The translations under genes and the position numbers were made by a program. The notes below the pieces were generated by a model that saw only the letters and a program-made list of their open reading frames with translations, was not told where the DNA came from and did not search any database. This document shows, piece after piece, positions 8,101-42,958 of a stretch of DNA of 45,116 nucleotides (its first letter is position 1; each line of letters opens with the position of its first letter). Source of the DNA: Armatimonas rosea (GTDB lineage Bacteria > Armatimonadota > Armatimonadia > Armatimonadales > Armatimonadaceae); NCBI RefSeq assembly GCF_014202505.1, contig NZ_JACHGW010000013.1, positions 1 through 45,116 on the forward strand, written 5' to 3'.

Positions 8101-8129
8101 TTCGAATCGTGAGAGCAGAAAGAAGGCAA

Positions 8130-18293: not shown

Positions 18294-18584
18294 CTATCGA
18301 GCCGTGGGAAGAACAGACTCGACGGGGATTACCACAATGAATCCTTCGTCGGGTCTGCCCGTGCCTCCGTGCGATTGAATTGCTTCGATAACGGGCGCGA
18401 GAAGCTCCACGGGGACGATAACCTCTAGTTTAGATTGCACCACCTGCTGATAGTGCCCACCGTCCAGATGAAACGTCCGTGTCTCCGATACGGTCACTGC
18501 GGGAATGCCGGGGATCTCATGCAGGGCGTCGAGCACCTTCGGAACCAGGAAGGGCTGGAGAATGGCTTTGATCTCTCGTTTCAT
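18294..18584 (-). CDS. P-II-like protein associated with metal efflux
   Basis: A 96-residue protein of the P-II/GlnB-like ferredoxin fold (KREIKAILQPFLVPKVLDALHEI; LEVIVPVELLAPVIEAIQSH; GFIVVIPVESV). The region matching the T-loop (HLDGGHYQQVVQSK) differs from true GlnB and lacks the uridylylated Tyr context, so it is unlikely to be a nitrogen regulator. Small P-II-like proteins are often encoded with heavy-metal RND pumps and may bind metal or nucleotide to tune them. Its ATG overlaps the pump stop by 4 bp, making it the last gene of the efflux operon. Confidence 0.75.
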   Translation of the reverse strand: MKREIKAILQPFLVPKVLDALHEIPGIPAVTVSETRTFHLDGGHYQQVVQSKLEVIVPVELLAPVIEAIQSHGGTGRPDEGFIVVIPVESVLPTAR

Positions 18585-23250: not shown

Positions 23251-24455
23251 GGTGTTTTCAGAGAATCCGCTGTGGGATGAATACGCTCCCACTCAGTGCG
23301 TGCTTGTGCATAGGCAAAGGCAGCGGCGAGGCGCTCTGCGAGCACGGCGCGGTAGGTGCGCTGGGCCTCAAGGACTGCAGTAATGCTGGTCTGGCCTGCT
23401 TGAAATCCCGTCTTGCTGGCCTGGAGGAGCCGCTCTGAGCGCTGGATGAGGTCGGCTTGGTAGCTCTGCAGAACCGCCTCAGCGCTCTCAAGCTGTGCTT
23501 TTGCTTGTGCACGCTCCTGTGCGAACTGGAGTGTCAGCGCACTCTGCCGCGCTTGTTGCGCCTCCGTTGCGGCAGCGACTTGACGAACGCGTGCACGCTT
23601 CGCTCCCCAGTCGAGGGGGAAGTTGACCTGCACTGCCGCACCTCGATCCGCAGGGCCTGAAGGGTGAAAGAGGTTCTGGGAGCGGAGCATCAGAGAGACA
23701 TCGGGTTTGAGCTCCGTTCGGGCAAGCTTCTCCTCACTGACCAAGCGCTGAAGGTTGGCGGCCTCTAGTGCTAGCTCCGGGCGTGGACCGCCTTTCTCGG
23801 CAAGAGGCACAACCGTGAGTGGCAGAGGGCTCAGGGGTGGAAGGGCTTCCTCAGGCGACTTTCCCAGAAGCACTGCAAGCGCCGCCTGCGCGGATTTGCG
23901 CTTGCCGCTCGCCTGAATGACTTGCTGCTGTGCCCTAGAAACTTCGATCCGGGTCTGAGTGGCCTCGATTCCGGGACGTGCTCCTAGATCGACTTGTCTC
24001 GTTGTCACCCGGTCGAGCTCTTGCGTCAGCTGGAGAGCCTCTTGTGCGAGGACTTCCTGTGCCTGTGCGTAGGCAAGGGCATCGTAGGCCACCCGAACCG
24101 CATGGGCTAAGCTAAGGGTCTCTAGATCCGCCCCCGCAGCACTCACCGCAAGGCGCGAGACAGCAACGGCTGTGCGGGCACCGCGCGCCCCGTTGACCTC
24201 CAACGGCTGCGAAAAGAAAAGCTCCTCGGTGGTGCCATTGGCGCTCCCCAGCCAGGGTGCCACATAAAATGTCGGGGCGCTGAGTGCTCGTGCTGCCGTC
24301 ACGCCTTCCTTAGCGGCGGCAATCTCTTGGCGTGCCGACTGCATCTTGGGGTGCGATTTGAGCGCCATTTGAATGGCAGCATCTCGTGTCAGAACGGGAG
24401 TCTCTTGTGGTATGGCTACCTGTGTCAGAAGTAAAAAGACAAGCGCTTCTTGCAT
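23247..24455 (-). CDS. TolC-family outer-membrane protein, CusC/CzcC type
   Basis: A 402-residue outer-membrane channel of the TolC/CzcC family with a short signal peptide (MQEALVFLLLTQVAIPQ). The two helical-hairpin halves are visible (AIQMALKSHPKMQSARQEI; RSERLLQASKTGFQAGQTS, then ITAVLEAQRTYR). Two starts are in frame, ATG 24464 and ATG 24455. I prefer 24455 because the predicted -10 TAGGAT (24468-24463) overlaps the first ATG and lies 7 nt before the second, implying a leaderless mRNA. First gene of a four-gene operon: channel, adaptor, pump, P-II-like. Confidence 0.85.
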   Translation of the reverse strand: MQEALVFLLLTQVAIPQETPVLTRDAAIQMALKSHPKMQSARQEIAAAKEGVTAARALSAPTFYVAPWLGSANGTTEELFFSQPLEVNGARGARTAVAVSRLAVSAAGADLETLSLAHAVRVAYDALAYAQAQEVLAQEALQLTQELDRVTTRQVDLGARPGIEATQTRIEVSRAQQQVIQASGKRKSAQAALAVLLGKSPEEALPPLSPLPLTVVPLAEKGGPRPELALEAANLQRLVSEEKLARTELKPDVSLMLRSQNLFHPSGPADRGAAVQVNFPLDWGAKRARVRQVAAATEAQQARQSALTLQFAQERAQAKAQLESAEAVLQSYQADLIQRSERLLQASKTGFQAGQTSITAVLEAQRTYRAVLAERLAAAFAYAQARTEWERIHPTADSLKTP

Positions 24456-24462
24456 TGGGGGC

Positions 24463-24497
24463 ATCCTAACCCGGCAACTATGAGAGGAAGATGAGAG
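24463..24497 (-). promoter_or_regulatory. Efflux operon promoter with response-regulator direct repeat
   Basis: On the minus strand: CTCTCAT-CTTC-CTCTCAT (24497-24480, 11-bp pitch), 11 bp, then -10 TAGGAT at 24468-24463, then 7 bp to ATG 24455. It lies back to back with the response-regulator promoter. Confidence 0.75.
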
Positions 24498-24498
24498 G

Positions 24499-24532
24499 CT
24501 CTCACGATCCTCTCATAGAATGGGGGTACCCT
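24499..24532 (+). promoter_or_regulatory. Autoregulated promoter of the second two-component system
   Basis: CTCTCAC-GATC-CTCTCAT at 24499-24516 (11-bp pitch), 10 bp, then TACCCT at 24527-24532, then 7 bp to ATG 24540. Only one base separates this box from the one for the efflux operon, so one regulator array probably serves both directions. Confidence 0.75.
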
Positions 24533-24539
24533 GAGAAAC

Positions 24540-25214
24540 ATGAAGCTCTTGGTCGTTGAGGATGAGATCGCCGCGGGCATCTTTCTTCAGGAGGGACTCT
24601 CTGAGGAAGGCTACGCGGTGGATATGGCCCGTGATGCTCACGAGGCGGACGAAGCCGTGGCGCTCTACCGCTACGATCTGATCGTCCTCGATGTGATGCT
24701 CCCCGGCAAGGATGGGTTCACCCTCTGCCGGCAGTGGCGAATGGAGGGTGTCAAGAGCCCGATTCTCTTTCTCACGGCACGTGACGACGTGGCGGATCGA
24801 ATTGCCGGGCTAGACCAAGGTGGCGATGACTACCTGGTCAAGCCCTTCGCCTTCGACGAGCTCCTCGCCCGTATCCGTGCCCTACTACGCCGCACGCTCA
24901 GTGAGCCAGTTCCCCCGATCCTTACCTTCGGTGAGCTTGTCATCGACACCAACTCCAAGAAGGTCTGGCGGAGCGGCGAGCTTGTCAGCCTGACCGCGCG
25001 GGAGCACCAGATGCTGGAGTATCTCGCGTTTCATCCCGAGCGCCTCATCACCCGCACCAGGCTCTGGGAACATGTCTGGGAGACAGGTAGTGAGCCTGAC
25101 TCTAATGTGGTGGATGTCTATATCGGCTATCTCCGCCAAAAACTAGGCCGCGAGCGTATCGAGACCGTCCGTGGTCAAGGCTATCGCTTCAAGCACGAGG
25201 TCGAGAGTGAGTAG
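24540..25214 (+). CDS. OmpR/PhoB-family response regulator, CusR/CopR-like
   Basis: A 224-residue response regulator. The receiver domain has D8, phospho-acceptor D51 (LIVLDVMLPGKDGF), LTARDD and the lysine in LVKPFAFDELLARI. The winged-helix domain ends ETVRGQGYRFKHE. Divergent from the heavy-metal efflux operon and overlapping its kinase gene, the standard setting of CusR/CopR-type metal regulators. I propose it binds the CTCTCAT direct repeats at its own promoter and at four other genes in the window: direct 7-bp repeats with 11-bp pitch are what the OmpR/PhoB family recognises. The metal specificity is not visible. Confidence 0.93.
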   Translation: MKLLVVEDEIAAGIFLQEGLSEEGYAVDMARDAHEADEAVALYRYDLIVLDVMLPGKDGFTLCRQWRMEGVKSPILFLTARDDVADRIAGLDQGGDDYLVKPFAFDELLARIRALLRRTLSEPVPPILTFGELVIDTNSKKVWRSGELVSLTAREHQMLEYLAFHPERLITRTRLWEHVWETGSEPDSNVVDVYIGYLRQKLGRERIETVRGQGYRFKHEVESE

Positions 25215-26646
25215 AAAAACGACCTTTCGAGATCGGCTGACACTTCAGACCACGCTGCTCTGCCTTCTCGTCTTGACCATTGCAGGAACGGCCGTTTTTC
25301 TGGGAGCACGCACCGCTCTCCTAGCAAACCTTGATGGGGCTCTCCTGGGGATTGCCCGTGCCGAGCTGGCATCTGCTCTCGATGGCCCCGGCGGAAAAGT
25401 GCATATCCATGAGGACAGCAAGCTGGTCTTGCACGGCGCAGCGGGCTATGAAAAATACGCTCTCATCCGGGATGAGCACGGGGATTTAGCTGCTCATACG
25501 GCCAATGTTCTCCCTCGTCAGCTTCCCAAACTAGACCAGCAAGCACTTCAAAGCACCGGCGGCGGACTCGCTGTTTTTGGGGATATCTACCTTGATGGGC
25601 GAGCACTACGTGCCGTCTACTACCCCTTCAAGGATCTGAAAGGCCGTCCCTATATCGCCATCTGCGCTGTACCTTATGCCCCCATGGAACAGTCTTTGCG
25701 CTTGCTGGGAGCGACGCTGCTCCTGGCACTGACGACCTGTGGACTGGGAGCCACCTGGGGTGCCCGGCGACTTGCCCTGCGCCTGACCGACCCTCTGGAG
25801 GAGTTAGCCCAGAGGGCACGGCACATTGGTGGTGAGACACTCCATGAGCGCATCCCCCAGCTTTCCCAGGACGACGAGCTGGTGAGCCTCACCGACGGGC
25901 TAAATGAGATGCTCTCCCAGCTCGATGTCGCCTTTGCCGAGCGCCAGACAATGATCGACGCGCAGCGCCAGTTTCTCATGGACGCCTCGCACGAGCTACG
26001 AACCCCTGTCTCCAATCTCCGGGGCCTGGTCGAGGTCTCCCTGCGTCGCCCTCGAACCAATGAGTCCTACCAGAGAACGCTGAGTATCTGCCTCCCTGAA
26101 ATCAAGCGTCTCAATGTCTTGGTCAACGACCTCCTGACCCTCGTCCGTGCAGAAGCAGGAACTGTGGTTCTGGCAAAAGAGCCGGTTGACCTTGTCGCGC
26201 TGATCGGCCAGGCGCTTCAAGCCCATCAGGCAAACGCGACGGAAAAGCAGGTTCATCTTTGCCCGACGACCCCAGAGAGCCTCAACCTTCAGGGCGATCC
26301 GACACGTCTGCGACAGGTTCTCGATAACCTGATCGACAATGCGCTCCGCTTCGCACCAACGGAGAGTAAAGTTGAGGTAACTCTCACAGAACAGGACAAA
26401 ATGGCAGTTCTCACCGTTCGTGACCAAGGACCGGGAATCTCCCCCGAGGATCTTCCTCACCTCTTTAAGCGTTTCTGGCGCGCCGATGTCTCGCGAAACC
26501 GCGCCACGGGTGGGCTGGGGCTGGGACTTGCCATTACTCACTCGCTCGTCGAGGCACATGGAGGGACTATCACTGTGGAAAGCGTGGTAGGTAAAGGCGC
26601 ATGTTTTAGTGTGACTATCCCTCGGCATGGATTCACTACGGCCTAG
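25207..26646 (+). CDS. Sensor histidine kinase, CusS-like
   Basis: A 479-residue inner-membrane kinase: TM1 (about 18-38), periplasmic sensor region (about 40-160), TM2 (about 166-188), HAMP (RLTDPLEELAQRARHIGG), dimerisation domain with H262 in SHELRTPV, N box (NLIDNALRFAP), G1 box (VRDQGPGIS), F box and G2 box (GGLGLGLAITHSLVEAHGG). All catalytic boxes are intact. I prefer GTG 25207, overlapping the regulator stop by 8 bp, over an upstream GTG at 25171 that lies deeper in the regulator gene. The sensor region has few Cys, Met or His clusters, so direct metal binding is unproven. Confidence 0.9.
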   Translation: MSRKTTFRDRLTLQTTLLCLLVLTIAGTAVFLGARTALLANLDGALLGIARAELASALDGPGGKVHIHEDSKLVLHGAAGYEKYALIRDEHGDLAAHTANVLPRQLPKLDQQALQSTGGGLAVFGDIYLDGRALRAVYYPFKDLKGRPYIAICAVPYAPMEQSLRLLGATLLLALTTCGLGATWGARRLALRLTDPLEELAQRARHIGGETLHERIPQLSQDDELVSLTDGLNEMLSQLDVAFAERQTMIDAQRQFLMDASHELRTPVSNLRGLVEVSLRRPRTNESYQRTLSICLPEIKRLNVLVNDLLTLVRAEAGTVVLAKEPVDLVALIGQALQAHQANATEKQVHLCPTTPESLNLQGDPTRLRQVLDNLIDNALRFAPTESKVEVTLTEQDKMAVLTVRDQGPGISPEDLPHLFKRFWRADVSRNRATGGLGLGLAITHSLVEAHGGTITVESVVGKGACFSVTIPRHGFTTA

Positions 26647-26699
26647 GCTTAAGGTTTTTATTGCAATAATCATGTTAAATAGCTTGAAGGATTTGAAAA

Positions 26700-28571
26700 A
26701 TGCAACTGACCCCTTACAAAGATTCGCTCACGGTTCCGAAAAAGCTCATCATTAAACGCGGGAAGCTGAAGATCGCGATGGTGCGAACGCGCTTGCGTCT
26801 TCACTCGGAGCTTCCCAATACCACAGCGCTATGGACCTATGAAGGCTCCGCTCCTGGCCCGATAATCGAAGTGCGACGGGGCCAGAAGCTTACTGTGGAG
26901 TGGAAAAACCAACTTACAGGGACGATTCCACTAACGGCAGCACGATCTAAGCAAGTTCCAGGAGATGAGGATCTCTGGCACTCCAATGTGGCAGGCATTG
27001 CCTTGAGCTCCGATGCTGATGAAGTGATGATCACTCCCCATATTGATGATCTCCACGCTCATACGGTAGTGCACCTTCATGGTGGCAAGACATCCCCCGA
27101 CAGCGATGGCTGGACCGATAATGTCCACCATCTAGGTCAAACACAGGCGTGTGTCTATGAAAATGACATGCGCTCCACTCTTCTCTGGTACCACGATCAT
27201 GCCATGGGAGTTACGCGCTTCAATGTCTTTTCGGGACTTGCTGGGTTCTACATTATCCGTGATGCCGATGACGACAAAGTCATGAGCGCCCTTCGCGCCT
27301 CGCATGGCCTCACGAAAAAGGCACGTTCGCCCAAAACGCCTCTCGAATTGCCACTGGTGATTCAGGATCGTAACTTTCTGACCAAAGCTAACGGAGACCT
27401 AACCGGCGAGCTTCTGCATATCGTCCAAGATCTTCCTCTCAACGCTGCGGGGGATAAAGGCCCAATGGAGTTCTTTGGCCCCTACACTCTCGTGAATGGA
27501 ACCGTTTGGCCCCACGTCGACGTTCGGCCTGGCCCTTATCGGCTTCGCCTTCTGAACGGCTCAAACGCCCGGACGTATGCGCTTGCTCTGGTCGATCAGA
27601 ATAATTCTCCTGTACCGAACGTGACTATGCAGCAGATTGGTACGGACGGGGGCCTTCTTGGTGCCCCCAGACCCGTTGAGCGGATTGTCATCGCACCTGC
27701 AGAGCGTGTGGATCTGATCATCGATTTTACCAGTGTCGCTGCCGGGACCAAGCTTCGTTTTCTGAATACCGCCCTCTCGCCCTTTGGTAATCAATATGTT
27801 CCTAAACCGGGGGATACCGCGCCCAGCGACCTACTGGTACTTCCCGAAGTGATGGAGTTCCGGGTGCAGGGCAAGAAGTGCCAGCGCCTCGATCTTCCCG
27901 CTCCGTTATCAAAGTTTAAGGCGCTGACTCACGGTGATTTACCCCACCATCATAATCACCGACTTGTTGCCTTAGTTGAAGATACCAACACCTTCGGAAT
28001 GCTGACCTTTCTAGAGTTGGAAAAGGTAGGTCCAGCACAGACGCCGACTCCTGACGGAATGCTGAACCTACCTCTAGATATCCATCCTGACGACCCAGCA
28101 AATCCCCTTCCTTCAGTAGACTATCGGATCACAGCACGGATGTTCCGTGACGGAAACCCATGGATGGTTGCTGAAAATGCCACTGAAGTATGGAATATCA
28201 TCAACCTCACAGGAGATACTCATCCCTTTCACATCCATTTAGTGCAGTTCCAAATGCTCCGGCGCACTGGTTTTGATCCCCAAAATTTTGAATACAATGA
28301 TGGCAAGATTGCGAACCAAGGCCCCATTATATCTAAGGGCACATCACAACCGTTAGAGATCGGTTGGAAAGATACTGTGCGCGTTGATCCAGGTGAGCTA
28401 GTCTCAATTGCGGTTCCATTTGAAGGATTTTCTGGTCAGTATATGTACCACTGCCATATTCTAGAGCATGAGGATCATGAGATGATGCGCCCCTTTGTTG
28501 TCATGTCTGAGGAGACGATGCCTTTTATGCCGAGCCATGGCCATTCCTCGGGTCACGATCATAACCACTGA
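26700..28571 (+). CDS. CotA-like multicopper oxidase
   Basis: A 623-residue three-domain multicopper oxidase resembling CotA laccase, bilirubin oxidase and phenoxazinone synthase. All copper sites are present: HLHGG (H125, H127), WYHDH (H165, H167), HPFHIH (H508, H511, H513) and YHCHILEHEDHEM (H584, C585, H586, H590, with axial M595). No signal peptide is seen, so a cytosolic or unusually exported enzyme is possible; CotA also lacks one. The tail is His-rich (HGHSSGHDHNH) and may bind copper. A GAAGGAT ribosome site precedes ATG 26700. With the efflux operon next door it could oxidise Cu(I). No CTCTCAT box lies before it; CTAGGCTTAAGG near 26643 is shared with the 7000 region. Confidence 0.9.
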   Translation: MQLTPYKDSLTVPKKLIIKRGKLKIAMVRTRLRLHSELPNTTALWTYEGSAPGPIIEVRRGQKLTVEWKNQLTGTIPLTAARSKQVPGDEDLWHSNVAGIALSSDADEVMITPHIDDLHAHTVVHLHGGKTSPDSDGWTDNVHHLGQTQACVYENDMRSTLLWYHDHAMGVTRFNVFSGLAGFYIIRDADDDKVMSALRASHGLTKKARSPKTPLELPLVIQDRNFLTKANGDLTGELLHIVQDLPLNAAGDKGPMEFFGPYTLVNGTVWPHVDVRPGPYRLRLLNGSNARTYALALVDQNNSPVPNVTMQQIGTDGGLLGAPRPVERIVIAPAERVDLIIDFTSVAAGTKLRFLNTALSPFGNQYVPKPGDTAPSDLLVLPEVMEFRVQGKKCQRLDLPAPLSKFKALTHGDLPHHHNHRLVALVEDTNTFGMLTFLELEKVGPAQTPTPDGMLNLPLDIHPDDPANPLPSVDYRITARMFRDGNPWMVAENATEVWNIINLTGDTHPFHIHLVQFQMLRRTGFDPQNFEYNDGKIANQGPIISKGTSQPLEIGWKDTVRVDPGELVSIAVPFEGFSGQYMYHCHILEHEDHEMMRPFVVMSEETMPFMPSHGHSSGHDHNH

Positions 28572-28674: not shown

Positions 28675-28706
28675 TGTATTTTTGTTCGCTCTCCCTCTCT
28701 CTCTTA
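28675..28706 (+). promoter_or_regulatory. Shared TGTATTTTT-N15-CTCTCTTA promoter, copy 1
   Basis: TGTATTTTT at 28675-28683 and CTCTCTTA at 28699-28706 with a 15-bp spacer whose last base is T, 44 bp before ATG 28751. Identical elements and spacing recur at 30670 and 34989. Probably a promoter read by the 30095 sigma factor. Confidence 0.7.
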
Positions 28707-28750
28707 CGTGAATTCAGCACCTTAGGGTGATTGAGATGAGAGGATATACG

Positions 28751-30031
28751 ATGAAACGACTAAACCGACGCGCTTTTGTTCTGGGGGCACTGCTTACCTT
28801 TGGCTTGACGGGATCTGGCCATGCAGCCTTTGCACAGAGCATTGTTGCTCCAAATATCTATACCAATGCGAATGCAGAGTGGGAAGTTGCAGGAGCCGCA
28901 GGGACGCATCACCAGCAGATCTTTAGTAGTACCCAGTTCTGGCCGGCCAATGAGACCCATACCCTAAGCTCACTGGCGTTCCGGCCTGGCAAGTCCCTCT
29001 TTACTGGTTCCTATACCTGGACTCTGAGCCATGTTGAGGTCTACGTGAGCACCACGAAAACGACTGTCGCAGGTCTCAGTGCTACCTTTGCCGATAACTA
29101 CGCCAGCTCAACAGATCGAACTCTGGTCTACAGTGGGCCAATCACGTTTTCGACGACATTAACCAACTACGGCGGTCCGCATAACTTCGACTTCAAGATT
29201 CCCTTCCAGGTGCCGTTCTCCTATACCCCAGGGCAGGGAAATCTCCTGGTGGAGGTCATCGACTACAGCTTCTCCGAGAACCTCTGGAACGCACAGGTGG
29301 ACTGCATTGCTGCCAGCGATCTCACCAACTACGTCATGACGGACTACCGCTATGCGACGGGCCGGATAGGCTACTTTGGCGGGGCGGGAGTGGTGATGCA
29401 GTTTGACACCGACTATGTCAGCCCAAGCTCGATTCTTCCGACCTCGCTTGTCCTCTCACCCACTTCCCTGATTGGTGGGGCATCGTCGCTTGGCACGGTC
29501 ACACTGAACGCACCAGCTCCCGCAGGCGGCCTGAGCGTCGCCCTTACCTCCAGCGCCACGGCCGCGAGTGTCCCGGTCTCTGTTTTGGTGCCTGCGGGCC
29601 AGTCCAGTGCCAGCTTCGCGATCCCGACTACGTCGGTCGCAGCAACCACGGTTGCCAACCTCAGCGCAACTCTCAATGGGGCAACGGTGGGAGCGAACCT
29701 GACGATCAACCCAGCTCCTGCGCCGCCACCGCCCACCGGCCTCCAGATCGCACAGTTCACCGTTAATCCAAGCACCCTGGAGAGCGGTGAGCTCGCCGAT
29801 GGCAAGGTCGTCCTGAGCGGAAAAGCGCCTGCAGGCGGTGTCACGATCAGCCTCACCAGCGCCAACCCGGGCGTGCTCAGTGTCCCCCCTTCCGTCTTCA
29901 TTCCCGCCGGGGAGAAGCGTGGCGAGTTCAAGCTGACCGCAGGGTCCGTCATAGCGGCAACGCCTGTAGTCGTCAGTGCCACCCTGGCAGGAGCCCCCAG
30001 TAAGGCAACCGTGACTGTCATCCCCCGCTAG
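28751..30031 (+). CDS. Tat-exported surface protein with two Ig-like repeats
   Basis: A 426-residue exported protein. It starts with a twin-arginine type signal (LNRRAFVLGALLTFGLTG, cleavage near AFAQ), then a roughly 190-residue beta-rich domain of unknown family (NIYTNANAEWEVAG to VMQFDTDYVSP), then two related Ig-like repeats (about 230-325 and 335-426), each with a PAGG and PAG(Q/E) pattern: APAPAGGLSVALTS/VLVPAGQSS and GKAPAGGVTISLTS/VFIPAGEKR. The start is ATG 28751 with AGAGGA upstream. It lies under copy 1 of the shared promoter and directly before the sigma gene, so it is a candidate regulon member. It probably acts in adhesion or as a surface layer part; no enzyme motifs. Confidence 0.75.
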   Translation: MKRLNRRAFVLGALLTFGLTGSGHAAFAQSIVAPNIYTNANAEWEVAGAAGTHHQQIFSSTQFWPANETHTLSSLAFRPGKSLFTGSYTWTLSHVEVYVSTTKTTVAGLSATFADNYASSTDRTLVYSGPITFSTTLTNYGGPHNFDFKIPFQVPFSYTPGQGNLLVEVIDYSFSENLWNAQVDCIAASDLTNYVMTDYRYATGRIGYFGGAGVVMQFDTDYVSPSSILPTSLVLSPTSLIGGASSLGTVTLNAPAPAGGLSVALTSSATAASVPVSVLVPAGQSSASFAIPTTSVAATTVANLSATLNGATVGANLTINPAPAPPPPTGLQIAQFTVNPSTLESGELADGKVVLSGKAPAGGVTISLTSANPGVLSVPPSVFIPAGEKRGEFKLTAGSVIAATPVVVSATLAGAPSKATVTVIPR

Positions 30032-30043
30032 GAGGTTTTAGCT

Positions 30044-30078
30044 CTCTCATGGTTCTCTCACAATCGCCTTGATAGAAC
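30044..30078 (+). promoter_or_regulatory. Sigma-factor gene promoter with response-regulator direct repeat
   Basis: CTCTCAT-GGTT-CTCTCAC at 30044-30061 (11-bp pitch), then 11 bp, then TAGAAC at 30073-30078, then 16 bp to ATG 30095. Same architecture as the four metal/redox promoters, and the only link seen between that regulon and the CHAT cluster. Confidence 0.65.
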
Positions 30079-30094
30079 CCATAATGGGAAAAAG

Positions 30095-30664
30095 ATGCGG
30101 ATTGGTTTGAGTAAAAACTATCGGAGTCTGACGGATTCTGAGCTAGTTGCAGAGTGCATCCCAGGTAGCGAGGCTGCCTGGGATGAGCTGCTTCGTCGGC
30201 ACGGTGGCCTGATCTTCTCCACCATCCGGCGCATGGGGCTGTCATCGCTGGATGCCGAAGATGTCTTTCAGAGTGTCTGCATACTGCTGCTGGAGAACCT
30301 TACAAGCCTGCGGGAGGGTCAGAAGCTCACCGGCTGGCTTATGGCCGTCTCGCGGCGGGAGACACTCCGCTGGCTCCGGCGACAGCGGCCCACAAGCGAG
30401 CTTCCTACCACGGAGCGAGAGGCCACCGATGACCTCCCCGAGAAACAGCTTGCCGCGCTTGAAGACCGGCACTTACTGGAGCGTGGCCTGGAGCAGCTCG
30501 GAGAGCGGTGCCAGACGCTTCTTATCGCACTCTACCTAACCGAACCTGCGCCCAGCTATGAGGCTATCGCCCAGGAGCGCAGCTGGCCTGTGGGCAGTGT
30601 CGGGCCAAACCGGGCACGCTGCTTGGAGCGCCTGCGCGTTGAGCTGGAGAAACTGGGATACTAA
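30095..30664 (+). CDS. Sigma-70 family (ECF-like) sigma factor of the CHAT cluster
   Basis: A 189-residue sigma factor with region 2 (AWDELLRRHGGLIFSTIRRM; DAEDVFQSVCILLLENL; GWLMAVSRRETLRWLRRQR) and region 4 (LGERCQTLLIALYLTEP; YEAIAQERSWPVGSVGPNRARCLERLR). No anti-sigma gene of the zinc-finger type is next to it. Sigma factors of this type are found beside CHAT-domain protease genes in several phyla. It is separated from the next gene by only 59 bp, which hold copy 2 of the TGTATTTTT-N15-CTCTCTTA element, so it probably switches on the following three-gene operon. Its own promoter carries a CTCTCAT box. Confidence 0.88.
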   Translation: MRIGLSKNYRSLTDSELVAECIPGSEAAWDELLRRHGGLIFSTIRRMGLSSLDAEDVFQSVCILLLENLTSLREGQKLTGWLMAVSRRETLRWLRRQRPTSELPTTEREATDDLPEKQLAALEDRHLLERGLEQLGERCQTLLIALYLTEPAPSYEAIAQERSWPVGSVGPNRARCLERLRVELEKLGY

Positions 30665-30669
30665 GGTGC

Positions 30670-30701
30670 TGTATTTTTCACGCGCCTCTCTGTCTCTCTT
30701 A
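30670..30701 (+). promoter_or_regulatory. Shared TGTATTTTT-N15-CTCTCTTA promoter, copy 2
   Basis: TGTATTTTT at 30670-30678 and CTCTCTTA at 30694-30701, 15-bp spacer, 22 bp before ATG 30724. It begins 5 bp after the sigma stop codon, placing the CHAT operon under its own promoter. Confidence 0.75.
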
Positions 30702-30723
30702 GAGCAGGTAGGAAGATAAACCC

Positions 30724-31230
30724 ATGAGCGATGAGACCGAGCTTGAAGCACGACTAATAGCGGCGAGGGCAGCAGGCCCTCTAGAGCCCCTCACAGAGTC
30801 AGCAGTGGCACGCGCACGCCAGCTCTTTCGACTCTACACCCCCCAGCCAGACCAACAAACCAGCCTGGTCCAGCTCGCCCGACTGGTCTTAGATAGCTTT
30901 CGGGGGCCACAAGCCCTGGCAGCAGCCCGAGGAGCAACCACAAACGAGGCGCGGGAGCTCTTATTTGAAGTGGGCGACCTGACCTTTCGCCTTTTTCAAG
31001 AGCCCTTTGCACAAGACGACTGGTTCCTGATCGGCCAGCTTCTCACGTCAGAAGAAGTACCAGTCGAAGGGATCCAAGCAACCCTAGAGCCTGGAGAGCT
31101 CGCCGCAACCGAGCGGGGCAAGGGAGAACTTCACTTTGACAGTGTCCCACCGGGCCGCTATGCCGTCCGCCTTATGCTTCCCGATGGCATGAGTATCGTT
31201 GTCCCGGAGGTGCCGGTAGGACAGGTATGA
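30724..31230 (+). CDS. Beta-sandwich partner protein of the sigma/CHAT cluster
   Basis: A 168-residue protein without signal peptide or membrane helix. An alpha-helical N-terminal third (MSDETELEARLIAARAAG; VARARQLFRLY) is followed by a segment that recurs in proteins next to CHAT-linked sigma factors (LVLDSFRGPQALAAARG; LLFEVGDLTFRLFQEP; WFLIGQLL) and ends in a small carboxypeptidase-regulatory-like beta fold (GELHFDSVPPGRYAVRLMLPDGMSIVVPEV). No zinc-binding anti-sigma motif. It may be a sensor, an anti-sigma partner or a protease substrate. ATG 30724 has AGGTAGGA upstream; the stop overlaps the CHAT start (ATGA). The function is inferred from position only. Confidence 0.65.
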   Translation: MSDETELEARLIAARAAGPLEPLTESAVARARQLFRLYTPQPDQQTSLVQLARLVLDSFRGPQALAAARGATTNEARELLFEVGDLTFRLFQEPFAQDDWFLIGQLLTSEEVPVEGIQATLEPGELAATERGKGELHFDSVPPGRYAVRLMLPDGMSIVVPEVPVGQV

Positions 31231-33761
31231 GTGAGCCATCGCTAGCACAACAAGCAGGCTCCCTTCGCCAGGAAGCTCAGCAGCTTCGGGCGCAGGGCCG
31301 CCATGTCGAGGCGCTCGTTGCCTACGACCGCGTGGCTGCTTGTGCCCGCGCTGCACAAGATCCCGTACTAGAGGCGCAGCTACTGATCGGTAAGATTGAC
31401 TCACTGGGGGTGCTAGGACGCGAAGATGAAGGAATTTCCCTCGGACGTGAGCTTGCCGCGACATTATTTGTTGCTGGCTACGAAGAAGACGCTGCTCGGG
31501 CGGGGATGAATATCGCCAACCTGCTCTACCGTCAGGATAGGCACTCCGAAGCACTGGCAGAGTTCGATATCTGTTCAGAGGTCTTTGCCAGCCGAGCGAG
31601 CCGTGCGCTCCTGGCACGTGCTGAGGCCAATGCCGCCAACTGCCTCTCGTGTCTCGGACGGCTCGCGGAGGCACAGGAGCGTCTCACCCGTGCGCGCGAG
31701 GGCTTTCTTGCCGAAGGACTGGAGCCACTGGCCGCCATGGCCGAGGCGAACCAGGGCTACCTCCACTTTCTCGCGGGCAGCTATGGCCCTGCACTCACGG
31801 CCCTGAGCCATGCCCGCGCGGTATTTCAGGCAACAAGCGGGATGGAGCTCGAAGCCGCAAAGTGTACCGCCGACCGCGCCGATGTCTACCACGCCCTCCA
31901 GCTCCTCCCCGAAGCCAGCCACGACTACACCGAAGCACTCGCAGCGCTTGAGCTTCCCTACGAGGCAGCGCGGGCACGGCTCGGGCGGGCGAGTGTTCGG
32001 CTTGCTCTGGGAGAGACGGCACTCGCCCTCAATGACCTCGAGGGCGCAGAGCTGACCTTTCGCGCTCAGAAAAACCACTTCTTCCTGGGGAGAATCGCAC
32101 TGCTTCGAGCGCAGGTCACCGGCGAAGTACGGGAGGCACAGAAAGCGGTGCGCCTCTTCGTCCGCTCCGGGCAACAGGGCTGGGCGGCGGAGGCAAGGCT
32201 GCTTCTTGCGGGTGATTCCCCCCGCAAGCTCCTGGCGATTGTACGCACGGCCAAAAATTGGTCGCGTGGCTGGCTGGAGTGCCGCGCGTGGCGAGCCCTG
32301 GCATCGGTCTACGCACAACGGGGAAAGCCAAACGACGCGATCCAGGCACGACGCGAGGCAGTAACTGTCTTTGAGTCCGTACGCACCCAGCTCGCCGCCC
32401 CCGAAGAGCTCCATGTCTCCTTCCTAACAGATAAAGCCCAGCTCTACATGGAGCTGATCGATGCGCTCCTGGAGCGAGGGCGCACCGCGGATCGGGCAGA
32501 GGCGCTGCTTGTCCTAGAGCGCTCCCGCTCCCGGCTGGTCTTGGAGCGCTTGGCGCAGGCAGCCCCTAGTGCGCTCCCCACCTCCGAGCGCCTGGCAAGG
32601 CTTCGCCACGAGCTGAGCGAGGCTTACCAGCGCCTCAATGGATTTCCCGACGAGTCGCGCCGTTTTGGGGGCGTTCCGACAACCGAAGCCCTCCGTGCAC
32701 TGGAGGAGACCTACCACCAAGCTCTGCATGAGGAGGAACTCCACCAGAGTGCTACCCTCCCCACGACCGCCCTCACGATCCAGCTGGACACGCTGGCACT
32801 CAAGCCCGATGAGGCGCTTATCGCCTACTACGGAACCGCCGACTTCGTTCATGCCTTTGTCTTGCGTGCGGGAGAGCCCATCGCCTTTCTGCCCAAGCTC
32901 TGCCCCCAGCGCGCACTCGTCCTTGCTGGTCGGCGGCTACGCTTCCATCTCCAGCGCCCTCGCACTTCCGGAGTGGGTGAGGTGGAGAGCATCTTAGGCG
33001 AGCTTTACGACCTAATCTTTCGCCCCCTTAAACCTCTTCTCTCAAACAAAGAGAAGCTGGTGTTCGTGCCGCACTCAAGTGTCCAAGGGCTCCCACTCGC
33101 GGCCCTCTGGGATGGTGTCGAGCCACTCACCGAGCGCTTCGAGTGCACCCTGGCCACGGGAATCGCGCTGTGGAAGGAGCGCGAGCCGCTCTCGTCACCA
33201 CATGACGCGGAAGTACTGGTGATGGGCTTAGATGCCCCAGAGATCCCTGCTGCCCTCGATGAGGCACGGCAAGTTGCGGCGTGCTTCTCGGACCCCCACC
33301 TATGCCTTGGGGAAGCAGCAACAGGCGAAGCGTTCACGCGCCTTGCGCCGCACTGCCAAATCATTCACTTGGCGACGCACGCTCTGTTCCGTGCAGACAA
33401 CCCACTATTCTCAGGCTTGCAGCTTGCCGATGGCTGGCTTCTAGCCCACGACCTCTACGGATTGAGGCTATCCGCACAAACCGTCACCCTCTCGGCCTGC
33501 CAAACCGGTCTGGCAACAACCGTTGGGGGAAGCGAGTCATTTGGGCTGGTTCGTGCGTTCTTGGCTGCGGGGGCACAGTCAATTGTCGCAAGCCTCTGGA
33601 ATGCCGATGATGCTACCACACGTTTGTTGATGGAGAGATTTTATGAGCAAGTTAAACAAGGACATACCCCTTCGGGAGCACTGCGAAGTGCCCAGCAAGC
33701 GATTCGCATGCACTTCCCACACCCCTACCACTGGGCAGCCTTTCAGGTGTTCTGTGGCTAA
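31227..33761 (+). CDS. TPR-CHAT caspase-like protease
   Basis: An 844-residue cytosolic protein. Residues about 10-300 are tetratricopeptide-like helical repeats (ARAGMNIANLLYRQDRHSEALAEF; AEANAANCLSCLGRLAEAQERL; ADRADVYHALQLLPEASHDYTEAL), then a helical linker (about 320-520), then the CHAT domain (about 540-844). The cysteine-protease dyad is H718 in HLATHALF and C758 in LSACQTG, followed by GLVRAFLAAGAQSIVASLW and the closing PYHWAAFQVFCG. CHAT proteases are relatives of caspases and separases; the TPR part usually senses a trigger. The start overlaps the 30724 stop, the end overlaps the subtilase start. I expect a regulated protease whose substrate may be the neighbour protein or the sigma control circuit. 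Confidence 0.92.
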   Translation: MSEPSLAQQAGSLRQEAQQLRAQGRHVEALVAYDRVAACARAAQDPVLEAQLLIGKIDSLGVLGREDEGISLGRELAATLFVAGYEEDAARAGMNIANLLYRQDRHSEALAEFDICSEVFASRASRALLARAEANAANCLSCLGRLAEAQERLTRAREGFLAEGLEPLAAMAEANQGYLHFLAGSYGPALTALSHARAVFQATSGMELEAAKCTADRADVYHALQLLPEASHDYTEALAALELPYEAARARLGRASVRLALGETALALNDLEGAELTFRAQKNHFFLGRIALLRAQVTGEVREAQKAVRLFVRSGQQGWAAEARLLLAGDSPRKLLAIVRTAKNWSRGWLECRAWRALASVYAQRGKPNDAIQARREAVTVFESVRTQLAAPEELHVSFLTDKAQLYMELIDALLERGRTADRAEALLVLERSRSRLVLERLAQAAPSALPTSERLARLRHELSEAYQRLNGFPDESRRFGGVPTTEALRALEETYHQALHEEELHQSATLPTTALTIQLDTLALKPDEALIAYYGTADFVHAFVLRAGEPIAFLPKLCPQRALVLAGRRLRFHLQRPRTSGVGEVESILGELYDLIFRPLKPLLSNKEKLVFVPHSSVQGLPLAALWDGVEPLTERFECTLATGIALWKEREPLSSPHDAEVLVMGLDAPEIPAALDEARQVAACFSDPHLCLGEAATGEAFTRLAPHCQIIHLATHALFRADNPLFSGLQLADGWLLAHDLYGLRLSAQTVTLSACQTGLATTVGGSESFGLVRAFLAAGAQSIVASLWNADDATTRLLMERFYEQVKQGHTPSGALRSAQQAIRMHFPHPYHWAAFQVFCG

Positions 33762-34980
33762 GCCCTCGCTTGCTCTTGGCCTACTTGCCCTGGTCGCGCT
33801 CGTGTCGGGTTGCGGGGGCGGAGGAGCCTCACCCAGTCCCACACCCACACCGACTCCAACACCTCCAGCGGGAAATCGGAGTACGGTTCTGGTACGCCCC
33901 CAGACAGGTGTCTCCATCACAGCTCTCGCAAGCCGCTACGGGGCCACAGTTGAGGAGCAGGTTCCGGGAAGCAATATCTACGCTCTGATCGGAAGCGACG
34001 ACCTCAAGACACGTCTCTCCAGTGACTCCGAGGTGCTCTCCGCCGAGGACGACGATGAAGTACTAGCTCCCGAACCTGCCAATGGTGATCCGTTCCACTT
34101 CCCCACCGACTTCCAGGCAGACCCACTAACCAGCTTCGATACCAACCTGCGCGGAATGATCGACGCTCCTCCCGGCTCGTTTGGCCGAGGACGGGCCGGG
34201 GGAGCTCCCATCATTGTCGCGGTTCTGGATACGGGTGTCTCACGAGCGCACCCGGCCCTCCAAGGTCGGCTATTGCCTGGCTACAACGGGATTACGGGTA
34301 GCAGTGACGAAGGCGAGGTCGCCGATGGAACCCACAATCGCGGGATGGGGCATGGCACGATGGTTGCGGGGGTTATCGCACGCCTGGCTCCCGACGCCAA
34401 GATTCTCCCGATTCGTGTCCTCAATGCCGATGGCGTGGGCTCGCTTCTCTCCATCACCAAAGGAATCGAGTACGCGCTTGCCAATGGCGCACGGGTGATC
34501 AACCTAAGCTGTGGGATCGGGCGGCGCTCCGACGTGCTCGATGATGTGTTTAGTGGACTGGCAGAGAAAGGGGCTATCTTGGTCGCCTCCGCAGGCAATG
34601 AGAATGTCTCGGCCGGCCCCTATCCTGCCGCCGCCGAGCATGTCCTTGCTGTTGCCGCCGTAGAGAGCGACCGCACCAAGAGTAAGTACTCCAACTACGG
34701 CCCCTGGGTCGATGTGGTCGCCCCGGGAACGGGAATGGAGAGCTCCTGGTGGCAAGGCGGCTACGCCCGCTGGTCAGGAACCTCGTTTGCCACTCCCTGC
34801 GTCGCTGCCGAGGCCGCCTTTATTCTCGCAAGCTATCCCAAGCTGAAGTCCGATGACATCGAGAGCTGTATTCGCAGCTCTGCTCTCTCCGTTGACGAGG
34901 CAAACCCAGCACTCACCGGGCAGCTCGGTAAAGGTCTGGTTCAGTTTCGTGCGGCACTGGTGAAGGCAAAAGATAAATAA
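33754..34980 (+). CDS. S8 subtilase lipoprotein
   Basis: A 408-residue secreted subtilisin-like protease anchored as a lipoprotein: signal peptide with lipobox LVSGC (C20), a Gly-rich and Pro/Thr linker (CGGGGASPSPTPTPTPTPP), an inhibitor-like propeptide (about 42-90, STVLVRPQTGVSITALASRYG), and the catalytic domain with D159 (AVLDTGVSRAHP), H200 (GHGTMVAGVIA), oxyanion Asn in ASAGNEN and S344 (GTSFATP). All active-site residues are present. The start is GTG 33754, which gives the lipoprotein signal and overlaps the CHAT stop by 8 bp; an open frame upstream lies inside the CHAT gene. Transcribed with a cytosolic caspase-like protease, so two proteases on two sides of the membrane share one switch. 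Confidence 0.9.
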   Translation: MAKPSLALGLLALVALVSGCGGGGASPSPTPTPTPTPPAGNRSTVLVRPQTGVSITALASRYGATVEEQVPGSNIYALIGSDDLKTRLSSDSEVLSAEDDDEVLAPEPANGDPFHFPTDFQADPLTSFDTNLRGMIDAPPGSFGRGRAGGAPIIVAVLDTGVSRAHPALQGRLLPGYNGITGSSDEGEVADGTHNRGMGHGTMVAGVIARLAPDAKILPIRVLNADGVGSLLSITKGIEYALANGARVINLSCGIGRRSDVLDDVFSGLAEKGAILVASAGNENVSAGPYPAAAEHVLAVAAVESDRTKSKYSNYGPWVDVVAPGTGMESSWWQGGYARWSGTSFATPCVAAEAAFILASYPKLKSDDIESCIRSSALSVDEANPALTGQLGKGLVQFRAALVKAKDK

Positions 34981-34988
34981 TCAGAGCC

Positions 34989-35020
34989 TGTATTTTTCCT
35001 AAGGCACGTGGTCTCTCTTA
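34989..35020 (+). promoter_or_regulatory. Shared TGTATTTTT-N15-CTCTCTTA promoter, copy 3
   Basis: TGTATTTTT at 34989-34997 and CTCTCTTA at 35013-35020 with a 15-bp spacer ending in T, 28 bp before ATG 35049 and 8 bp after the subtilase stop. Third identical arrangement in 6.4 kb. Confidence 0.72.
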
Positions 35021-35048: not shown

Positions 35049-36254
35049 ATGAAACGACTGACAGCGATCTGTGTACTTTTAGGAGCGATAAGCCTTGTTG
35101 GCTGTGGCGGCGGTGGAAGTGGCAGCAGCTCCACAGGAACCCGTAAGGTGGCAGTGCTCGCCACCGATAGCTTCCGCGAGGACTACGACCAGGTCTGGGC
35201 GACGATCTACAAAGTGGAGCTGCTTCCCGAAGGGGGTGGCGCTCCGATCGTGGTCTTCGATGATCCCACGGGTCGCCAGATCGACCTCAAGACGCTCAGG
35301 GATGCAACCGGAGCCCGCTTCGCTTTTCTCGGTGATGCCAGTGTCCCCGCGGGGAACTACACCGGAGTGCGCTTTGCACTGGGCTCCGAGATGCGCCTAG
35401 TTGAGCACGGCAAAACAGTCGTAGAACCGATGCCTTTGTCGAGCACTCTCCCACTCGATGGCGCGGGTCATCCGCAAGTGACGGTAAACTTCCCGGCACC
35501 TCGTGCCCTAGGGAGTACAGGTGATCCGGTGGTGATCGACTTCGACCTGGCGAACTTTATCCTGAAAGACGGCAAGCTCACGCCCTCGGTGGTGGAAGGC
35601 GACCATAGCGGCCTCTCCGACCCCAGCCGCCATGAGCATGAGGACTACAAGGGGGCGGTGAGCGAGCTCTCCGGAAGCGCCCCCTCCCAGACCTTTGTCC
35701 TCAACCGGGGCCGTGGGATGAGCGTGACGGTTGCCACGACCGCCGCAACCGCGATCTACGGCAGCGGTAGTCTAGACAATGGCAAGGTTGTCGAGGTGAC
35801 GGGGCGCTACAACCCAACAACCGACCGACTGGTCGCCACCAAGATCGAGGTCAAGGGAGCTGGCGAGGACAGCAACGAGAGTGAGGGAAGCCACGCCCCT
35901 GAGATCAAGGGAAGCGTCGGTTCCGTCTCGGCCACAGCGGGAACGTTCTCGGTAACACTGCGCAAGGCCAAGGGCTTCGCCCCCAACGTGACGACCATCA
36001 ACGTAGTCACCTCTCCAACAACCATCTTCCGCACCGACGGCGGCCGCACAAAGACCTCGGCGGAGTTCTTTGCTCTCCTAACGGGGGCGGCAAAGGTCGA
36101 GGTCGAGGGCACCTACGATGCCGCTACCAATACCCTCACCGCAGCCAAGGCCAAGGTTGAGAACGAGAGCAACGATGGCGGCTGGGAAAATGAGAGCCAC
36201 CACGACCAAGACGACCACAACGGCGATGGGAAAGTGGATGGCAACGACGATTAG
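35049..36254 (+). CDS. DUF4382/DUF5666 lipoprotein with calcium-type tail motif
   Basis: A 401-residue lipoprotein. Lipobox LVGC (about C19) is followed by a Gly/Ser linker, then a DUF4382-like domain (about 30-175: VAVLATDSFREDYDQVWATIYKVELLP; VPAGNYTGVRFALG; VVIDFDLANFIL), then two DUF5666-like modules (about 200-275 and 285-375), each ending in a VEV(T/E)G-Y segment plus ATKIEVKG or AAKAKVEN. The C-terminus has an EF-hand/dockerin-like loop, DHNGDGKVDGNDD, likely to bind calcium. It lies under copy 3 of the shared promoter and so is a candidate member of the 30095 sigma regulon. A cell-surface structural or binding role is likely; no catalytic motif. Confidence 0.8.
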   Translation: MKRLTAICVLLGAISLVGCGGGGSGSSSTGTRKVAVLATDSFREDYDQVWATIYKVELLPEGGGAPIVVFDDPTGRQIDLKTLRDATGARFAFLGDASVPAGNYTGVRFALGSEMRLVEHGKTVVEPMPLSSTLPLDGAGHPQVTVNFPAPRALGSTGDPVVIDFDLANFILKDGKLTPSVVEGDHSGLSDPSRHEHEDYKGAVSELSGSAPSQTFVLNRGRGMSVTVATTAATAIYGSGSLDNGKVVEVTGRYNPTTDRLVATKIEVKGAGEDSNESEGSHAPEIKGSVGSVSATAGTFSVTLRKAKGFAPNVTTINVVTSPTTIFRTDGGRTKTSAEFFALLTGAAKVEVEGTYDAATNTLTAAKAKVENESNDGGWENESHHDQDDHNGDGKVDGNDD

Positions 36255-37655: not shown

Positions 37656-38642
37656 ATGGCTAGCAGGGCTAAAACAACTGAAGATTTGACAGCGACACAA
37701 GCAGCGCAGGTGCTTGGTGTTTCTGCGGAGACTCTCCGTCGTATGGATCGGCGGGGAGACCTTAGTCCTTCCAAGCGAATCGGCAATCGGCGTATCTACA
37801 CCCCAGACGATATCAGCCGCCTCCGCGAGCTGCTCGGTGGCAAGCGCCGTAAGGTGAGCGCCACTATCGCCCTCGTCAACCAAAAGGGTGGAGTTGGCAA
37901 AACGACAGTGGCAATCAACCTAGGGGGAGCATTGGCAACTCAGGGCTACCGCGTCCTGATCATTGACTTCGACCCTCAAGCAAACTGCTCCTTTGGTCTG
38001 GATGTCCTCTGGAACGACATTGAATCATCTATCGCAGATGTGATTGGATTTGAGGCAGCAGGTCCTTCAAAGACCCTTACCGAAGTCATTCGTCGCGTGA
38101 GCTACCATCCTAACCTCTACCTTGCTCCATCCCACTTGAACCTAGCCGCTGCTGAGATGATGTTGCACAGTGCTATGGGGCGTGAGCTTAAGCTCGACAA
38201 AGCACTTGATAGTGTGCGCAGTGACTACGACTTTATTCTAATTGATGCACCGCCCTCTCTTGGTCTACTCTCGATCAACGCTATGGTGGCAGCAGATGCC
38301 TTGCTTGTCCCTATCGATGGAGCCTTCGCTCTTGAGGGAGTTCGTCAACTCCTGAATACTCGCAAAGGCTGCGCCGAGCTCTCACGCCATCCCATCCATG
38401 TCCTTGGAGCGGTTCTCAACCGGCAACGAACTATTACTGCTAACTCCGCCGCAATCCGCGATATGGCTGTCCAAATCTTTGGACGCCGGATGTTTGATAC
38501 GGTCATCCCAGAGCGTACTGCTGTAGATGGATCAACAGCAGCCCGCCAGCCCATCGTTTTCTCGCGCCAGCCAGAGGCAGATCCTTATTTTGAACTTGCT
38601 GAGGAGGTGACGCGAAGTGTCGCAGAAATCGTTGGCAACTAG
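37656..38642 (+). CDS. parA: ParA partition ATPase with N-terminal MerR-type HTH
   Basis: A 328-residue protein. Residues about 10-62 form a MerR-like winged helix (TATQAAQVLGVSAETLRRMDRRGDL; RIYTPDDISRLRELL). The rest is a Soj/ParA-type ATPase with deviant Walker A KGGVGKTT (77-84), Walker A' in IIDFDPQANCSFG and Walker B in FILIDAPPSLGLLS. The ATPase should move plasmid copies on nucleoid DNA; the HTH suggests it also binds its own operator, as larger type Ia ParA proteins do, though those use a different HTH. Start ATG 37656. The end overlaps parB by 26 bp. Confidence 0.92.
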   Translation: MASRAKTTEDLTATQAAQVLGVSAETLRRMDRRGDLSPSKRIGNRRIYTPDDISRLRELLGGKRRKVSATIALVNQKGGVGKTTVAINLGGALATQGYRVLIIDFDPQANCSFGLDVLWNDIESSIADVIGFEAAGPSKTLTEVIRRVSYHPNLYLAPSHLNLAAAEMMLHSAMGRELKLDKALDSVRSDYDFILIDAPPSLGLLSINAMVAADALLVPIDGAFALEGVRQLLNTRKGCAELSRHPIHVLGAVLNRQRTITANSAAIRDMAVQIFGRRMFDTVIPERTAVDGSTAARQPIVFSRQPEADPYFELAEEVTRSVAEIVGN

Positions 38643-39573
38643 CTCATCGGATCGTACCGCGCGGCTAACTCTTGGACTTGCACAGACAGCGGCGGCGGCA
38701 TCGGCTCTGCTCGAGGAAGGGGATCGTCGTCATGCAGGTATCCCTGAGGATGCACGGGACCTCCTCCTCGATGATATTGAGCCTGACCCTCTGCAACCAC
38801 GGCGCACCTTTGAGGAACCAGAGCTACGAGCTCTAGCAGAAGATATTGCAAGGCGTGGAGTTATCTCCGCCATCCTAGTACGTCCGCCCGTTCTCCCGCT
38901 GGGCAAGTATCGCCTTGTCTGTGGGGAGCGTCGCTGGCGAGCGTCTCGTATGGCAGGCTTGGTGCGCATTCCAGCACGAGTTCGTGAGCTGCGCGATGAC
39001 GAAGTTCGAGCAGCACAGCTTGCAGAAAACATCCTTCGTGCAGATCTCAACGATATCGAGAAAGGGCGCTCTCTGCGAGAGCTCTACGATATTCGCAAAG
39101 AAGAGAATGCTCGCACTACCTGGGAAGCAGTCGCAGAAGAAGTAGGACTTGGCCGTGCTCGCATCCATGATCTGTTCCATCTAGCAAGCCTTCCTATGTC
39201 TATAGCGACGTTGATTGAATCCGGACGGCTCTCTGGTAGCCACGGTATTGCTCTCCAACGTGCCCAGGCCCAACTAGGCGAAGAGACAGTCATCCAGCTC
39301 GCCCAAGAAGCCGCACGCCCCGAAGGTCGTCGCACAGGTAGCTTTGGCCTCTCCGTTGTCGCACTTCGCGAGCGTATCCAGTTTCTTCTAAAGGGTGAGG
39401 CTACTCCTGAGCCAGAAGTAGCCCCCGTTGCAAAAGTAGCACGTCCCTTTATCCAGAAGACCCTCCAGGCAATCACTGCAGGAAAGCTCAAACAAGAAGA
39501 GTACGCGGAGCTCCTTCGTGCCCTGGAGAGCTATCAAGCAGCCTCCTCAGAAACGGAGGAGGCAGACCAATGA
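38617..39573 (+). CDS. parB: ParB-type partition protein
   Basis: A 318-residue ParB/Spo0J/RepB-family protein. The ParB N-terminal domain (about 50-145) has LLLDDIEPDPLQPRRTF, the CTPase-type GERRWRASRMAG motif and AAQLAENILRADLNDIEKGRSL. The central HTH is EAVAEEVGLGRARIHDLFHLA, with SGSHGIALQRA after it. The C-terminus is charged and helical, probably for dimerisation. GTG 38617 lies within the end of parA; no later start would keep the domain complete as well. It should bind the 30-bp palindromes on either side of the operon. Confidence 0.92.
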   Translation: MSQKSLATSSSDRTARLTLGLAQTAAAASALLEEGDRRHAGIPEDARDLLLDDIEPDPLQPRRTFEEPELRALAEDIARRGVISAILVRPPVLPLGKYRLVCGERRWRASRMAGLVRIPARVRELRDDEVRAAQLAENILRADLNDIEKGRSLRELYDIRKEENARTTWEAVAEEVGLGRARIHDLFHLASLPMSIATLIESGRLSGSHGIALQRAQAQLGEETVIQLAQEAARPEGRRTGSFGLSVVALRERIQFLLKGEATPEPEVAPVAKVARPFIQKTLQAITAGKLKQEEYAELLRALESYQAASSETEEADQ

Positions 39574-42787: not shown

Positions 42788-42808
42788 GAACAAAATTTTA
42801 GCCTAGTT

Positions 42809-42825
42809 ACTTGCGAATTGCAAGT
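42809..42825. promoter_or_regulatory. HxlR operator, copy 1
   Basis: ACTTGC-GAATT-GCAAGT, a 17-bp perfect palindromic site, 22 bp before the HxlR ATG. Confidence 0.75.
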
Positions 42826-42842
42826 GATGGGTGTAAGATGTG

Positions 42843-42859
42843 ACTTGTGAATTGCAAGT
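42843..42859. promoter_or_regulatory. HxlR operator, copy 2
   Basis: ACTTGT-GAATT-GCAAGT, the same site with one change in the left arm, 34 bp from copy 1 (about three helical turns), so two dimers could sit on one face of the DNA. Confidence 0.72.
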
Positions 42860-42958
42860 GACTCGGCTTCGGCACACGCTACCCCGTTTGCCGCAAGCAA
42901 GAGCAAAGCTTTCGATTTGCCTCAAAAACACTACGAAAACCAAAAGCGAATCAATAAC

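Follow-up and report, generated by a model that had tools for sequence, protein, structure and literature searches.

Organization of the four-gene cluster

The window analyzed here, contig C13 (45,116 nt) of the 6.33-Mb genome of Armatimonas rosea, a member of the Armatimonadota whose relatives by sequence are Chthonomonas-like, carries a cluster of four forward-strand genes. These encode an extracytoplasmic function (ECF) sigma factor (30095-30664), a small partner protein that appears to be a truncated anti-sigma-type protein (30724-31230), a tetratricopeptide repeat (TPR)-CHAT protease (31227-33761), and an S8 subtilase lipoprotein (33754-34980). The partner and protease genes overlap by 4 bp (ATGA), and the protease and subtilase genes by 8 bp. 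The longest open reading frame (ORF) for the subtilase starts at 33643 and would overlap the CHAT gene by 119 bp; the GTG start at 33754 is preferred because it yields a lipoprotein signal with the lipobox LVSGC. A preliminary description of this DNA had already named the four genes, and their coordinates, their overlaps, and the intact CHAT dyad and S8 triad are as it reported. The same genome contains the set twice more, on contigs C3 and C1, giving three copies in total. The C3 copy has the gene order of the window, and in the C1 copy a gene for a secreted repeat protein is inserted between the sigma factor and small protein genes. Identity of these copies to the window proteins is 42-45% for the sigma factor, CHAT protease, and subtilase and 27-38% for the small protein, which in the C1 copy carries an H-x4-C-x2-C motif.

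Co-occurrence across phyla

A scan of named genomes provided 79 related CHAT loci, and our own profiles for the four families were used to identify the gene sets. Because the sets of small protein, CHAT, S8, and sigma genes were gathered through CHAT patterns, the resulting counts are not an unbiased census. A conserved neighbourhood outside this strain had been set beforehand as a check on the proposed association, and all four genes were found together in 67 loci from four phyla, the Armatimonadota, Acidobacteriota, Chloroflexota, and Actinomycetota. By phylum, the complete set is present in 7 of 9 armatimonadotal, 11 of 14 acidobacterial, 4 of 25 chloroflexotal, and 27 of 30 actinobacterial loci, with some of the losses caused by contig ends. 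The order sigma-small-CHAT-S8 occurs in Armatimonadota and Chloroflexota and the order sigma-CHAT-small-S8 in Acidobacteriota and some Armatimonadota; in Actinomycetota, an S8-sigma-small unit is divergent to the CHAT gene.

The association is also seen from the side of the sigma factor. Across 251 Armatimonadota genomes, 53 sigma factors of this family were found, 47 of them with a listed CHAT gene no more than 4 kb away; in 45 of these cases the sigma factor gene is upstream of the CHAT gene and shares its strand. None of 30 weaker ECF sigma factors has such a neighbour. Three of the six exceptions stand at the end of a contig, and a fourth is accompanied by a CHAT fragment that lies at such an end. 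As controls, ten loci around other CHAT genes, including three in the genome of the window, were examined and contained neither a sigma factor of this family nor an S8 gene. Between the four proteins, pairwise distances are correlated at r values of 0.84-0.91 (0.76-0.82 inside the Armatimonadota; 0 of 500 permutations); part of this correlation comes from the common ancestry of the host lineages. The two additional copies in the same genome and the co-occurrence of the four families across phyla argue that the cluster is not a chance arrangement. Judged from these sequence comparisons, the sigma factor, its anti-sigma-derived partner, the TPR-CHAT protease, and the secreted subtilase form one co-inherited module.

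Five CHAT loci from Anaerolineae (L049, L052, L053, L056, and L058) instead combine a small protein of the zinc-binding anti-sigma (ZAS) type with an unrecognised family of 230-250 aa, which is faintly similar to sigma region 2 (only 8% by hhalign); its L049 member was scanned and gave no Pfam match.

Sigma factor and small partner protein

The sigma factor was identified by Pfam, the NCBIfam sigma70-ECF model, and comparison with solved ECF sigma factors. By Pfam alone, only region 2 is recognized (Sigma70_r2, 1e-11). The profile of its family spans both sigma2 and sigma4 of the solved ECF sigma factors SigW (8.9e-19), SigH, and RpoE, so that the protein has the two regions, and only those, that are typical of this class. 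A second sigma-70 protein, called at 454 aa, is encoded elsewhere in the window (1298-2662, reverse strand); it has regions 2 and 4 and a long extra part.

The small partner is soluble and, taken alone, gives a weak SdrD_B/CarboxypepD_reg-like match; its nature becomes clearer from its relatives. Among 25 aligned family members, zf-HC2 was matched in seven and CarboxypepD_reg in five, and the N-terminal part of the family profile matches the solved anti-sigma factors RsiW (1.1e-4), 3hug chain B, ChrR, and DdvA. A structure model of one relative, from locus L024 (predicted local distance difference test score, pLDDT, 86.5; predicted template modelling score 0.58), shows N-terminal helices followed by a beta-sandwich. 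Its residues 5-63 superpose on ChrR with a Z score of 7.9 (2.5 Å over 57 residues, 25% identity), a score in the range where a common arrangement is possible, but one with which both the identity and the sequence profile are in agreement. Foldseek with the small-protein model gave no match at an E value below 0.001. The ChrR/RsiW-like helical bundle is a property of the family, as represented by the L024 protein; the window copy has, by alignment, lost the zinc helices and retained the later helices, a linker, and the beta-sandwich. The zinc motif H-x3/4-C-x2-C is present in 14 of 30 armatimonadotal and 10 of 11 acidobacterial small proteins; in sigma-bearing loci, none of the five copies from Chloroflexota and none of the 27 from Actinomycetota has it. 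Actinobacterial members are homologous by profile to the ZAS-bearing relatives (hhalign 98.7%, E 2.5e-16). Thus, the partner is probably a homologue of anti-sigma proteins that has been truncated in the window copy. The family resembles the class I anti-sigma factors RseA, RsiW, and ChrR in its N-terminal helical bundle and, in many members, the H-x3/4-C-x2-C motif, but it is soluble and has a CarboxypepD_reg-like C-terminal sandwich in place of a transmembrane segment or a cupin domain, and the window copy differs further in having no zinc site.

The linker residue Arg69 is invariant in all 73 small-protein copies examined, and in 65 of them the next residue is G, S, or A. In the L024 model, this arginine lies between the first two strands, in a block of low confidence (mean pLDDT 60). 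Its invariance and its position in this linker together suggest a site of recognition or of cutting, although it may instead have a structural role.

The two proteases

The CHAT protein matches the Pfam CHAT family at 1.4e-56 and has both residues of the peptidase dyad, His718 and Cys758; the catalytic histidine and cysteine are retained in all 74 module CHAT proteins. Its structure model (pLDDT 87.6) consists of a TPR superhelix and a CHAT half, with residues 760-771, just past C758, disordered. The best fold matches of the model are Csx29 chains, with Z scores up to 30.5 at a root-mean-square deviation (rmsd) of 7.4. The CHAT half superposes on the protease domain of separase, the eukaryotic cohesin protease (5fby; Z 27.1, rmsd 2.9 over 302 residues, identity ~15%), and the fold of the TPR half resembles, among many TPR proteins, MalT domain III and the peptide receptors Rap and NprR. 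Against the NCBIfam Csx29 model, the protein scores 32 bits, far under the cut-off of 300. DdvA also turned up in the fold search with the CHAT model; no sequence similarity was seen between DdvA and the CHAT protein, and no paper on the DdvA structure was found. Residues E770 and D795 were considered as the basis of a preference for arginine and were not used, as E770 also aligns with the same residue in Csx29 and separase and D795 is missing in some modules.

The subtilase matches Peptidase_S8 at 7.2e-46 and has the catalytic residues D159, H200, and S344, together with N282, numbered from the GTG start. By hydropathy and by eye only, export signals were recognized on the S8 partners from Armatimonadota, Acidobacteriota, and Chloroflexota; by the same means, several Micromonospora proteins have twin-arginine-like signals, and none was seen in those of Saccharothrix and Catellatospora. 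The window protein scores 169 bits against the NCBIfam model for the type VII secretion mycosin, below its cut-off of 278.75.

Candidate promoter and co-regulated genes

A predicted promoter, TGTATTTTT-N16-TCTCTTA, has three exact copies in the 6.33-Mb genome, all within the cluster and on the forward strand. One (30670-30701) lies 22 nt 5′ of the small/CHAT/S8 operon. Another (28675-28706) is located 20 nt 5′ of a gene at 28727-30031 (forward strand), which encodes a predicted secreted protein with GGVSV-type beta repeats and ends 64 bp 5′ of the sigma factor gene; the third (34989-35020) is located 28 nt 5′ of a gene at 35049-36254 (forward strand) for a DUF4382/DUF5666 lipoprotein, a recurring neighbour of the module. 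Both flanking genes are likely targets of the sigma factor. With up to three mismatches allowed, the chance expectation for the pattern in the window is 0.11. The earlier proposal that the sigma factor feeds its own operon gains from this cluster-specific promoter, which is what would be expected if it were so. The pattern does not occur directly before the sigma factor gene itself; the promoter at 28675 could reach this gene by read-through, because no terminator-like site lies between them on the forward strand.

Variants with the same spacing are found 5′ of the C3 small-protein gene and 5′ of a secreted-protein gene divergent from the C1 sigma factor gene. A further site with three mismatches (G000:C3:127822-127853) lies 31 nt 5′ of a DUF4382 lipoprotein paralogue, ~9.5 kb past the end of the S8 gene of the C3 module. 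In other genomes, GTATTTT-N17-TCT has the commonest spacing, with 13 sites, followed by 9 and 8 sites for spacings of 15 and 16 and 0-5 for the others. Nearly all of the N17 sites stand just 5′ of module genes or of a DUF4382 lipoprotein gene, including one acidobacterial locus, L043. Sites with the N15 spacer were rejected as a signal, being mostly a by-product of TCTCT repeats, which also account for part of the counts at 15 and 16. A genome-wide regulon at up to three mismatches was likewise discarded: it gave 28 sites, compared with 31 for a reversed-pattern control, so only exact or positionally supported sites were used. Among the recurring neighbours, DUF4382 lipoproteins are found in five module loci and secreted proteins with GGVSV repeats in four. 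Taken together, the module association and the co-regulation of its genes are well supported by these sequence patterns.

In 10 of the 14 acidobacterial loci (L032, L034, L036, L037, L038, L042, L051, L055, L057, and L062), an SBP_bac_5 oligopeptide-binding gene of an ABC transporter stands directly 5′ of the sigma factor gene on the same strand, together with permease genes. An HD-domain gene is often found 3′ of the S8 gene in acidobacterial modules. In loci L135-L138, a gene for a secreted protein family (AELSSGDLNIYGD...) adjoins the module sigma factor gene in divergent orientation; the L135 member was scanned and has no Pfam match.

Relation to known systems

The association is partly known, since the ECF54 sigma factors, found mainly in Actinobacteria, have been described with conserved carboxypeptidase, subtilase, and CHAT neighbours (Huang 2015 and Casas-Pastor 2021, as cited in PMC8999054), for which proteolytic control without an anti-sigma factor was suggested (PMC8999054). 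The present module has the same kinds of neighbours, subtilase, CHAT, and carboxypeptidase-type, a likeness judged by neighbour genes. It differs from the published group in spanning four phyla, in having a module promoter, and in having a partner homologous to ZAS anti-sigma proteins, the window copy itself being without a ZAS domain. ECF270 and ECF271, with model members in Acidobacteria and Chloroflexi, have soluble ZAS anti-sigma partners of unknown mechanism (PMC8999054). Compared by description only, they share with the module a soluble zinc anti-sigma partner and part of its phyla, but that review mentions neither a CHAT protein nor a subtilase beside them.

The nearest tested mechanism is the type III-E Craspase, with the TPR-CHAT protease Csx29, the sigma inhibitor Csx30, and CASP-sigma (PMC10028731). 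A TPR-CHAT protease close in fold to Csx29, a predicted sigma inhibitor, and an ECF sigma factor are combined here in one locus, but with a ZAS-type partner rather than Csx30, an added exported subtilase, and neither Cas7-11 nor CRISPR: no array-like repeats were found in window positions 20000-45116, and the window ORFs scanned include no Cas7-11-like family. The parallel with Csx29 and Csx30 drawn in the preliminary description holds in design; within the CHAT proteins the relationship to Csx29 is distant, and no similarity to Csx30 was found. In the literature searched for CHAT proteases together with anti-sigma factors, the type III-E paper stands alone, and a survey of conflict systems (PMC7159879) does not treat the subject. 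What appears to be new is the anti-sigma homology of the partner, the four-phylum span, the promoter, the invariant arginine, and the recurring surface genes.

A possible protease-fired sigma switch and its alternatives

Bacteria commonly contain cytoplasmic caspase-like (CHAT) proteases, but to our knowledge few of the substrates are known outside type III-E CRISPR. The module supplies a candidate substrate, a mutable site (Arg69), a sigma factor, and a promoter, which makes the question directly testable. The explanation that we somewhat favour is a switch in which the small protein would hold the sigma factor at rest until a signal reaches the TPR half of the CHAT protein and the protease becomes active. 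It would then cleave the linker of the small protein, possibly after Arg69, parting the sigma-binding helices from the sandwich, and the freed sigma factor would transcribe the small/CHAT/S8 operon in positive feedback, along with surface proteins. The subtilase would act outside, on the co-expressed surface proteins or in making a peptide signal. Several observations weigh against this explanation. The H-x3-C-x2-C zinc motif and the first ZAS helices are missing from the window copy, and the motif occurs in none of 27 actinobacterial copies; the role of the window copy as a sigma inhibitor, as first proposed, is therefore drawn from longer relatives with the ZAS domain. The invariant arginine may be structural, and a conserved cut site need not be expected, given that the sites cleaved by Csx29 enzymes are unconserved (PMC11106740). 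The link between sigma factor and promoter is drawn from position and exclusivity.

The model published for ECF54, with these same neighbours, dispenses with an anti-sigma factor and has the cluster proteases destroy the sigma factor itself, keeping the system off (PMC8999054). The actinobacterial proteins without a zinc motif fit it, but their homology to proteins with an intact ZAS domain does not. The recorded carboxypeptidase is probably the small protein, because the latter matches CarboxypepD_reg, a non-catalytic beta-sandwich, which suggests that the model overlooked this partner; and the subtilase would be expected to stay apart from the sigma factor, because in most phyla it is equipped with an export signal. 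We regard this model as improbable. It is also rather unlikely, if a little less so, that the sigma factor and an uncut small protein form the switch on their own, with the CHAT protein as a TPR scaffold or a downstream effector with other substrates and the subtilase as an exported effector. Both proteases could be outputs, their genes being preceded by the module promoter; TPR proteins with a fold like this one have many binding partners; and co-inheritance of the genes leaves contact between their products presumed. However, the translational coupling of the small protein and CHAT genes, their adjacency in two gene orders, and the universal dyad together with the invariant linker arginine are better suited to an enzyme and its substrate. 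An anti-phage switch, related to Craspase but free of CRISPR, would account for the parts shared with type III-E loci (PMC10028731) and for Csx29 chains as the closest solved TPR-CHAT relatives. The defence role first suggested is nevertheless very hard to sustain, given the absence of a CRISPR array from window positions 20000-45116, PADLOC matches only to generic subtilase models, and co-regulated genes that look like surface or secreted proteins; the window ORFs scanned include no defence genes.

The protease-fired switch could also be extended to a loop of two proteases, an idea prompted by the oligopeptide-binding and permease genes that precede acidobacterial sigma factor genes. The exported subtilase would trim co-expressed surface proteins to peptides, an importer would take them up, the TPR half would read them as RRNPP receptors do, and the CHAT protease would cut the anti-sigma protein at the invariant arginine. 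This loop is speculative and on balance doubtful; if true, it would be a widespread CRISPR-free counterpart, perhaps the source, of the Csx29/Csx30 switch.

Other features of the window

Two RND efflux sets (OEP, CusB/HlyD, and ACR_tran) occupy positions 5055-14208 and 18581-28571, each by a response-regulator/histidine-kinase pair, and with a multicopper oxidase at 26700 they look like metal (copper/silver) resistance. The 45-kb contig may be a plasmid; no overlap of its termini was found. It carries HTH-ParA and ParB genes at 37656-39573 and two imperfect palindromic 22-mers, 34 nt apart, at 42806-42861.

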